Under the pieces are notes generated by a model. That model saw nothing but the letters and a program-made list of their open reading frames with translations, ran no database searches and was not told the origin of the DNA. DNA of 42,755 bases from Campylobacterales bacterium (GTDB lineage: Bacteria; Campylobacterota; Campylobacteria; Campylobacterales; Sulfurimonadaceae): positions 1 through 42,755 of the forward strand of contig JACUTT010000019.1 of the NCBI GenBank assembly GCA_014859655.1, in the 5' to 3' direction. Both the position numbers and the translations under genes were made by a program. Below are positions 1,142-3,360 of the stretch, piece by piece. Numbering within the stretch: position 1 is the stretch's first letter; each line of letters begins with the position of its first letter.

Positions 1142-1228
1142 CTATAATATTTTTTTGCTAAACGAATAGAAAAATGCTTCAAGAGATTCGCTTAAGCGGC
1201 TGATTGCGTTAATTGCTTTTACTGCCAT
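1142..1228 (-). CDS. 28-aa microprotein, distal diverged copy
   Basis: A 28-codon frame on the minus strand starts at ATG 1228-1226, six bases after AAAGGA, and ends at TAG 1144-1142. A second copy at 2271-2357 has the same length. The two share 19 of 28 residues, including RLSESLE at 11-17 and SKKIL at 24-28. Differences are mostly conservative (V/L, I/L, A/S, F/L), several codons differ silently, and no indel or stop breaks either frame. That pattern suggests selection on a peptide. It looks like one amphipathic helix with an acidic centre and a basic end. It lies downstream of a uppP fragment, as the other copy lies downstream of intact uppP. No known family was recognised. Confidence 0.5.
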   Translation of the reverse strand: MAVKAINAISRLSESLEAFFYSFSKKIL

Positions 1229-1236
1229 TTTAGATC

Positions 1237-1268
1237 CTTTGCGGGCACAATATATCTTGTCCGCAAAG
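1237..1268 (-). promoter_or_regulatory. Hairpin overlapping the RBS of microprotein copy 1
   Basis: ctttgcgg (1237-1244) is the exact inverse of ccgcaaag (1261-1268), and four further inner pairs are possible. In the minus-strand RNA the 3' arm runs into the AAAGGA of the microprotein, so folding would partly bury the ribosome binding site. An equivalent hairpin precedes the second copy. Confidence 0.5.
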
Positions 1269-1291
1269 CTTAAAGCAAATTTTATCCCAGA

Positions 1292-1393
1292 CTAGAGCTC
1301 TACCCCGAAGATGCCAAAGAGGATGCCCGAGGCGATCAGATAGATTCCGAATGGGGTGAAGTTATAGCGCGAAACGATGGCCAGAAAGCGTTT
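1292..1393 (-). pseudogene. uppP: 3' fragment of a second, diverged uppP
   Basis: The minus strand encodes about 33 residues ending in TAG. They match the C-terminus of the intact UppP at 2423-3193 almost perfectly (for example SRYNFTPFGIYLIASG against SKYNFTPFGIYLIASG). Many third positions differ, so the fragment is not a recent copy of the neighbouring gene. Homology stops sharply near 1393, where the HNH-endonuclease fragment starts on the other strand. The piece retains the last transmembrane helix only and cannot function. Together with the downstream microprotein copy it shows that a uppP-microprotein locus from another lineage, or an old tandem duplicate, was truncated here. Confidence 0.85.
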
Positions 1394-2009
1394 TAGCAAA
1401 AACGCTTGTGTAGCCTACAGCATAGCAAATCAATATATGAGCGGCACAGTAAATCGTCAAGATTATCTACAGACGGCTATTGACTGGATTGCGCAAAAAG
1501 ATAGCACTACCATAGAAAACTATATGGCAACCCATCAACATGAGCCTAACGCCAATGAATTGTGGCTCTATTTCAAAAGTGTTATAGATTGGGTAGGTGC
1601 GGTATTTCCAATATATCGAAAAGAGATGAAGGGGATAGCGTGGGGAATTTTATACAATGAGTTCAAAGATGATAAAAGCTTAGACCCTAAGACATTGGAA
1701 GCCAAAATAGCAACACTCATGCAAGATGAGGATGTGGGTAGTAAAAAAGGAATATATGAATATTTGCTAACAGGCAAGGAAAAACATCTCAATATACGAA
1801 CATTTAGCGACAAACAAAAAAGAGAATCATATGAAAGGCAAAAAGGAATTTATCCGGTGTGTGTAAAAAATAAAAGTGACAAAACTCAGTATGAACTAAA
1901 CGAAATGGAAGCCGACCATATAACTCCTTGGCATGAGGGTGGAAAAACTGAAGCAAATAATTGTCAAATGTTATGCAAACTGCACAATAGGATGAAATCG
2001 GGAAAATAA
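1394..2009 (+). pseudogene. C-terminal half of a DUF262/HNH endonuclease
   Basis: The encoded segment matches the C-terminal half of DUF262-type proteins with an HNH nuclease domain. It includes the region NELWLYFKSVIDWV, a GIYEYLLTGKEKHLNIR strand and a terminal HNH motif (MEADHITPWHEGGKT, then NNCQMLCKLHN). The N-terminal DUF262 ParB-like nuclease/NTPase half is absent. The frame is open back to an ATG at 1377, but 1377-1393 is antisense uppP sequence, so that start is accidental. The family's first CxxC pair reads YPVC instead of CPVC, losing a structural cysteine. Relatives include GmrSD-type modification-dependent restriction enzymes. Probably inactive. Confidence 0.7.
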
Positions 2010-2036
2010 AGATTAGGGGTCGATTGATTAGGGGGT

Positions 2037-2073
2037 GAGGTGACAAGTATAAATAATTTTCTCTTTCCTCGGC
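2037..2073. repeat. 37-bp direct repeat, copy 2
   Basis: Same orientation and sequence as 322-358 with one mismatch. It lies 27 bases after the endonuclease fragment's stop codon. Confidence 0.85.
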
Positions 2074-2233
2074 ATCTTCGAGGGAAGATTCCCAATCAAG
2101 TTGGGCACCACAGGCATTCCCTTTGGTCAAATGACGAGAGGTTGGGGTTGGAAATTACGAGAGGAAAATTTTCTGTTTTCTAATGAAATAATGAGGGGTG
2201 ACACGAAAGAAGCGGGAGAGATAGAAGGGTCAG

Positions 2234-2258
2234 CCGTAAAGTGTTTACAGCTTTACGG
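2234..2258. repeat. Inverted repeat between direct repeat and microprotein
   Basis: ccgtaaag (2234-2241) and ctttacgg (2251-2258) form a perfect 8-bp stem with a 9-base loop, extendable by agcc/ggct across a small bulge. No T-run follows, so it is not a standard terminator. Bases 2074-2233 hold nothing else that I recognise. Confidence 0.4.
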
Positions 2259-2270
2259 GGCTGGTCGTGT

Positions 2271-2357
2271 TTATAATATTTTTTTGCTTAACGAACATAA
2301 AAATGATTCAAGTGATTCGCTCAAGCGGTCAATGAGATGAAGTGCTTTTAGTGCCAT
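2271..2357 (-). CDS. 28-aa microprotein, copy downstream of uppP
   Basis: This 28-codon minus-strand frame starts at ATG 2357-2355, seven bases after AAAGGA, and ends at TAA 2273-2271. It lies 65 bases downstream of the uppP stop on the same strand, so it may be the last cistron of the uppP transcript. It aligns end to end without gaps with the copy at 1142-1228 (19 of 28 identical; RLSESLE and SKKIL conserved). It begins MALKALHLIDRLSES and is rich in leucine and serine, compatible with an amphipathic, possibly membrane-surface helix. Function is unknown. Alternatives are a small toxic peptide held in check by the RBS hairpin, or a UppP partner. Confidence 0.55.
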   Translation of the reverse strand: MALKALHLIDRLSESLESFLCSLSKKIL

Positions 2358-2422: not shown

Positions 2423-3193
2423 TTAAAGCTCTACCCCGAAGATGCCGAAGAGGATCCCCGAAGCGATGAGATAGATGCCGAAGGGGGTGAAGTTGTACTT
2501 TGAGACGATGGCCAAAAAACTCTTGACGGCCAGCCATCCGACGACAAAGGAGACGATAAACCCCACCAGCAGCATAGAGGCTCCGTCGAAGGTAAGGCTG
2601 CTGTACTCTTTGAACAGGGTGTAGCCTGAGGCCGCGGTCATCGTCGGTATCGCTAGCAAAAATGAAAAACTCATCGACACCTCACGTTTCATCCCCAGAA
2701 GCATTCCCCCCAAAATCGTACTTCCCGAACGTGATATTCCCGGGATCAAGGAGAGGGCCTGGAAAAATCCGACGAAGAGCGCCTGCTTATAGCTCACCTC
2801 TTCAAGCTCAAAGGTATGATGCCCCCTTCGCGTGTAGATAAACTCCAGGATCAAAAAGAAGACACCCGTTGCGATCATCCATAAGACGATGCTGTTGGCT
2901 GAAAACATCACCTCGATCTGTTTATGGAAAAGAAGACCGATGATACCGGTGGGGATAAAGGCGACGATGAGTTTTTTCCAGATCTCAAGACTCTGGAAAA
3001 GGGTGCTATAGTAAATGATCATGATCGAAAAGATAGGCGCGATCTGTATGATGATGTTAAAAGCGTTCATAAAATCGTCTTGCGCCACCCCCATCATCTG
3101 CGAGGTCAGTGCGATATGCGCCGTGGAAGAGACGGGCAAAAACTCGGTAACCCCTTCAACTATGCCTAAAATAGCCGCTTCATAAAGTGTCAT
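2423..3193 (-). CDS. uppP: Undecaprenyl-diphosphatase UppP (BacA)
   Basis: This integral membrane phosphatase dephosphorylates undecaprenyl diphosphate to recycle the lipid carrier for peptidoglycan and surface glycans. Both family motifs are intact: EGVTEFLPVSSTAH near residues 13-26 and PGISRSGST near 151-159. About eight hydrophobic segments follow the usual pattern and the length (256 residues) is normal. I choose the second ATG (3193) because AAGGA at 3199-3203 is five bases upstream of it, while the ATG at 3199 overlaps that site. A TATACT element lies upstream at about 3275 on the minus strand. A diverged 3' fragment of the same gene lies at 1292-1393. Confidence 0.95.
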   Translation of the reverse strand: MTLYEAAILGIVEGVTEFLPVSSTAHIALTSQMMGVAQDDFMNAFNIIIQIAPIFSIMIIYYSTLFQSLEIWKKLIVAFIPTGIIGLLFHKQIEVMFSANSIVLWMIATGVFFLILEFIYTRRGHHTFELEEVSYKQALFVGFFQALSLIPGISRSGSTILGGMLLGMKREVSMSFSFLLAIPTMTAASGYTLFKEYSSLTFDGASMLLVGFIVSFVVGWLAVKSFLAIVSKYNFTPFGIYLIASGILFGIFGVEL

Positions 3194-3360
3194 AATCATC
3201 CTTGATAGTGTGTTGGACTTCGTGCATAAATCTTCACGCCTGGCGCTGTGCAGGAAGTCTGTTGATGTAAGTATAGTTAAATTTTGGTCCAGACCGATAT
3301 TTTTAATCGTTTATAAGTGTACAATTTAAGAATGCAAACATCTGAACAAATCAAGTACCG

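Follow-up and report, generated by a model that had tools for sequence, protein, structure and literature searches.

The window analysed here, a 42,755-nucleotide stretch of a Campylobacterales genome (G000), carries a gene that probably encodes an unannotated, RpoN-dependent flagellar microprotein of 28–30 residues, belonging to the middle tier (rod, hook and minor flagellin) of flagellar genes in Sulfurimonadaceae-type Campylobacterota. In that case, one unannotated and widely conserved gene joins a well-studied regulon; its 28–30 codons are short enough to escape annotation pipelines.

The gene is present in the window in two copies on the minus strand, located exactly at 1142–1228 and 2271–2357 (stop codon included), with translations MAVKAINAISRLSESLEAFFYSFSKKIL and MALKALHLIDRLSESLESFLCSLSKKIL of 28 codons each. 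An earlier note on this DNA had described two frames of equal length with AAAGGA ribosome-binding sites, nine residue differences and no indels, and every one of these features is confirmed; 19 of the 28 residues are identical. The main copy (2271–2357, 28 codons and TAA), with the Shine-Dalgarno AAAGGA read from the sequence at 2365–2370, is positioned directly 3′ of an intact uppP of the BacA family (2423–3199, minus strand, PF02673, E 1.6e-68), its syntenic upstream neighbour. It is the vertically inherited copy, and it is matched in its own genome by the profile of the family with an E of 3.9e-16. The second, diverged copy (1142–1228, 28 codons and TAG) has its AAAGGA, likewise read from the sequence, at 1235–1240. 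The 90-nucleotide blocks holding the two copies share 81% identity and are parts of a larger diverged repeat that also takes in the last 39 codons of uppP. The placement of each copy downstream of uppP, as the earlier note had it, therefore holds for the main copy, whereas the second follows only a diverged 3′-end fragment of uppP (1295–1411, minus strand, codons 220–258, 79% identity) that is carried with it. The pair differs at 5 synonymous and 11 non-synonymous positions (pS 0.29, pN 0.17), which is only suggestive of coding status and not decisive.

A translated search of 150 relatives, of the kind the earlier note had proposed, identified homologues that follow uppP and have no frame-breaking indels. 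All five sampled genomes of the same genus contain an indel-free 28-residue homologue of the main copy, 68–313 nucleotides downstream of uppP and preceded by an AAGGA-type Shine-Dalgarno sequence. A profile enlarged in two rounds (A1 to A3 to A4) and run on 200 genomes of the family Sulfurimonadaceae detects the microprotein in 92 of them, with E values as low as 1e-17 per genome and, with few exceptions, a single copy per carrier. The size of the protein is nearly fixed, since 75 of the 87 collected members have 30 residues, four have 29, and eight have 28. The C-terminus almost always reads LExSFYxLSxKxL followed by the stop codon, E19, S26, K28 and L30 are nearly invariant, and a strong Shine-Dalgarno sequence precedes most members. 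In 30 disjoint, independent pairs of members, pS is 0.39 and pN is 0.12. The resulting pN/pS for the annotated frame, 0.31, is below the 0.75 ± 0.07 of a null with randomly positioned differences (z = −6.6), and the five other reading frames of the same pairs give 0.42–1.51. The comparison of relatives thus bears out the suggestion that selection acts on the peptide: the frame is clearly under protein-level purifying selection, and it is almost certainly a real protein-coding gene.

The microprotein belongs to no known family, as the earlier note had supposed; Pfam, NCBIfam and Rfam contain no family that matches it. Searches of plasmids, and scans of viral contigs with strict degenerate patterns, returned no matches. 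A syntenic homologue is present in a second family (G091), where it has a Shine-Dalgarno sequence, the neighbouring rdgB and a sigma-54 promoter. It is the only match outside Sulfurimonadaceae with this combination; most of the other weak profile matches are noise or unproven, and the out-of-family matches from searches with a single peptide and with the first profile proved on inspection to be noise or unsupported. In a genome of another family (G329), a 31-residue frame preceded by a Shine-Dalgarno sequence ends in a similar C-terminus, LIYKFGDKVL, with homology unproven. It is situated between an S24-type repressor gene and oadG-like and oadA genes, and has neither a sigma-54 site nor the rdgB synteny.

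The interpretation of the microprotein is changed by its promoter, which was missed in the first reading. The motif was first seen when the upstream sequences were read together, and was then searched for in the 150 nucleotides before the start codon of 93 members. The core GG-N10-GC is found in 91 of the 93, including both window copies and all 91 members at the uppP–rdgB locus; the two exceptions are the two members located elsewhere. The more specific GG-N8-TTGC occurs in 87 of the 93 members, compared with 1.4 in shuffled sequences and none in reverse complements. The main copy has its sigma-54 (RpoN) promoter, TGGAATACTATTTGCTA, at 2403–2419 on the minus strand, with the GG..GC core (2405–2418) 47 nucleotides before the ATG, and the corresponding core of the second copy, GGGATAAAATTTGC, at 1275–1288 on the same strand, is 46 nucleotides before the ATG. 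The consensus of the members is given as TGGAAY-N6-TTGCTT or TGGAAYA-N4-TTTGCTT. It is of the same motif class as the sigma-54 consensus GGaa-N6-tTGCTt established by differential RNA-seq in Campylobacter jejuni (PMC3847290), and it also fits GGxxxxxxxxTTGCTT, the motif cited for the small RNA FlmE (PMC11187230). The promoter is retained where uppP is missing or located elsewhere, and in the second family (G091), and it is absent from all 18 regions downstream of uppP that lack the peptide. In G388, where the locus is decaying and the peptide frame is shortened to 17 codons, the GC element reads AC. The gene is very probably under RpoN control, as judged from this motif.

A short sigma-54-driven transcript could function mainly as an RpoN-dependent small RNA, with the frame incidental or secondary, and C. 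jejuni produces an RpoN-dependent flagellar small RNA (PMC11187230). Some codons of the microprotein are also strongly preferred, such as the terminal TTA-TAA found in 46 of 87 members. However, purifying selection specific to the frame, the fixed length of the frame and the strong Shine-Dalgarno sequence in most members make this improbable; moreover, the window has no match in Rfam, and pairing of the Shine-Dalgarno sequence is no greater than in shuffled leaders (0.40 and 0.43, respectively). A 5′ hairpin sequestering the Shine-Dalgarno sequence (CTCCTTT..AAAGGAG), spotted by eye, was rejected on the same pairing values and because its 5′ half is upstream of the predicted start site of transcription.

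The promoter class of the microprotein recurs elsewhere in the genome, mainly before flagellar genes of the middle tier. The strict pattern TGGAAYN5TTGCTW, scanned across the genomes G000 and G088, has 9 and 13 sites, respectively, compared with 5 and 1 for the reversed-pattern control. The microprotein gene is itself a target in both genomes. The other eight sites of G000 all precede flagellar or LPP20-type genes, namely those for a FlgB-like rod protein, a flgF/G-type rod protein, flgE, flagellin, flgL, fliW, flgH and an LPP20 lipoprotein, and seven sites of G088 precede flgB-, flgF/G-, flgL-, flgI-, flgH-, flagellin- and LPP20-type genes; some of these targets in the two genomes are named by sequence resemblance, without a Pfam match. 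Two further sites of G088 precede a DnaJ-domain gene and a gene for a putative outer-membrane protein, and some of its sites are located inside open reading frames and are probably due to chance. In C. jejuni, sigma-54 serves mainly flagellar biogenesis (PMC3847290, PMC3930126). FlhA accompanies the microprotein gene in 91 of its 92 carriers, and 82 of the 108 genomes without the gene have FlhA (Fisher p 4e-7, with phylogeny as an uncontrolled confounder); the one carrier without a match to FlhA, G460, is an 82% complete genome. Nearly all carriers are thus flagellated. These observations make a flagellar role of the microprotein likely.

Many flagellated genomes, those of genus g14 among others, lack the microprotein gene; therefore, it is not essential for flagella. 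None of the inspected loci has the gene beside a flagellar gene. It is possible to envisage an RpoN-regulated microprotein that serves not the flagellum but, for instance, the envelope or metabolism; the DnaJ-domain and outer-membrane protein targets in G088 and the existence of flagellated genomes without the gene would agree with such a role. By contrast, flagellar genes make up the majority of strict-motif targets, and nearly every carrier has FlhA, which leaves this explanation unlikely.

The ancestral and still usual order of genes at the locus is agt<, uppP>, microprotein gene>, rdgB< and mfs> (arrowheads give orientation; the Ham1 identity of rdgB is confirmed), and of the 86 mapped loci, 81 have the microprotein gene downstream of uppP. 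This arrangement had given rise to the proposal that the peptide acts with UppP in the recycling of undecaprenyl phosphate, or at the membrane near UppP. However, the two genes dissociate in both directions, and a functional link is not supported. In G015, a 100% complete genome, a search at E ≤ 1e-3 finds no uppP, although rdgB still has the peptide gene next to it; in G052, G462 and G437, uppP is on a different contig from the peptide gene, which is still at rdgB. Conversely, some genomes keep uppP and rdgB merely 42–53 nucleotides apart, without the peptide. The microprotein also has a sigma-54 promoter of its own. A joint action with UppP is consequently very unlikely, and the association is, on this comparison of gene orders, one of synteny and not of functional partnership. 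Rather than being a partner of uppP, the microprotein is probably a flagellar protein that has been overlooked.

The second copy has approximately 80% nucleotide identity to the main copy and likewise to the corresponding locus of the congener G004, whereas the region of the main copy is 89% identical to that locus. The second copy therefore most likely arose by import from a different lineage within the genus and not by duplication in place. The same small gene, with its promoter, Shine-Dalgarno sequence and reading frame, would have been acquired from a related lineage together with a scrap of uppP. The tail of this uppP abuts the 5′ cut end of a truncated gene for a type II restriction endonuclease with an HNH domain (1377–2009, plus strand), which covers positions 166–372 of a 372-position model and is likely to be a pseudogene. 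A 37-base-pair direct repeat (322–358 and 2037–2073) brackets the truncated restriction enzyme, the putatively imported microprotein copy and a ParE-type toxin gene (756–1028). Directly upstream of the toxin gene is an antitoxin-like open reading frame of 81 residues, and the pair spans 511–1028. A third copy of the repeat is present on another contig (G000:C9:41485–41518), approximately 3 kb from the flgB promoter.

The microprotein is predicted to form an amphipathic helix. The AlphaFold2 model, calculated from an alignment of 54 sequences, is a single helix spanning residues 3–29 with a mean pLDDT of 80.6, and the periodicity of hydrophobicity along the alignment columns peaks at 100° per residue, as in an amphipathic helix. 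Such a helix would fit docking to a protein or a position on the membrane surface better than crossing of the membrane. A small amphipathic peptide that G000 encodes in two copies, besides a probable homologue within a phage-like contig, could in principle be a type I toxin or otherwise membrane-active, and the earlier note had considered a small toxic peptide. The members differ in several respects from the hydrophobic, membrane-spanning peptides of type I toxins: among the 87 members the longest nonpolar run is five residues, the net charge averages +2.4 (range −2 to +7), and the Shine-Dalgarno sequence is not sequestered. Furthermore, many species have the gene at the same position, usually as a single copy, under a flagellar-type promoter, and a toxic function is thus highly improbable. 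A TATAAT at the 3′ end of the gene, considered in a loose scan as an antisense promoter, constitutes weak evidence, because it is created by the AT-rich codons for KKIL and stop.

The flagellar microprotein may be produced and act as follows. Upon completion of the flagellar export apparatus, the RpoN holoenzyme would fire the microprotein gene together with flgB, flgE, flgF/G, flgH, flgI, flgL, flagellin and fliW. The transcript of approximately 130 nucleotides would be translated from the strong Shine-Dalgarno sequence into one amphipathic α-helix, the conserved C-terminal face of which (L18-E19, F22-Y23, S26, K28 and L30) might dock on a protein that takes part in assembling the flagellum or in regulating this assembly. 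The docking of the helix to a flagellar partner is a tentative proposal, for which FliW/CsrA, FliS, FlgM/FliA, the export gate and FlgR are candidate partners. A search that starts from the promoter could reveal further flagellar microproteins in Campylobacterota.

The probable homologue on the phage-like contig, MAKIIKKANSLFDRFENAVYKLSQQIL, is encoded at G000:C47:37912–37995 (E 0.005). It has no sigma-54 promoter, overlaps the 3′ end of an upstream phage-type gene, and adjoins genes for an integrase and ParA. The 47-kb contig resembles a phage-plasmid, with a P22-type portal, terminase, capsid, CI-type repressor, integrase, ParA and a reverse transcriptase, the last suggesting a diversity-generating retroelement. 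A bolder and rather doubtful extension is that the helix of 28–30 residues constitutes a new flagellar component or checkpoint, expressed together with the rod-hook tier in Sulfurimonadaceae and their neighbours, and that the phage-plasmid, a temperate element of the same host, encodes a mimic of it, perhaps altering the flagellation of lysogens.

Genes for peptides of approximately 30 residues are known from Campylobacterota in the AapA-type type I toxins of Helicobacter. Unlike these, the microprotein gene lacks sequestration of the Shine-Dalgarno sequence, and has a sigma-54 promoter and a fixed chromosomal locus. Like the transcript predicted for the microprotein gene, the small RNA FlmE (CJnc230) of C. 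jejuni is short, depends on RpoN and belongs to the middle tier of flagellar genes. FlmE is encoded downstream of flgE and overlaps a predicted open reading frame, and yet it is non-coding according to ribosome profiling (PMC11187230), which is a caution against presuming translation of the microprotein. By contrast, the microprotein gene displays selection at the codon level and has a different location. In promoter and in the short distance from promoter to start codon, the microprotein gene resembles the RpoN-dependent middle flagellar genes of Campylobacterota, such as flgB, flgE, flaB and fliW. The microprotein differs from their products in its length of 28–30 residues, in not being a structural protein and in having no sequence family, and its gene stands alone in the interval between uppP and rdgB, outside the flagellar clusters.
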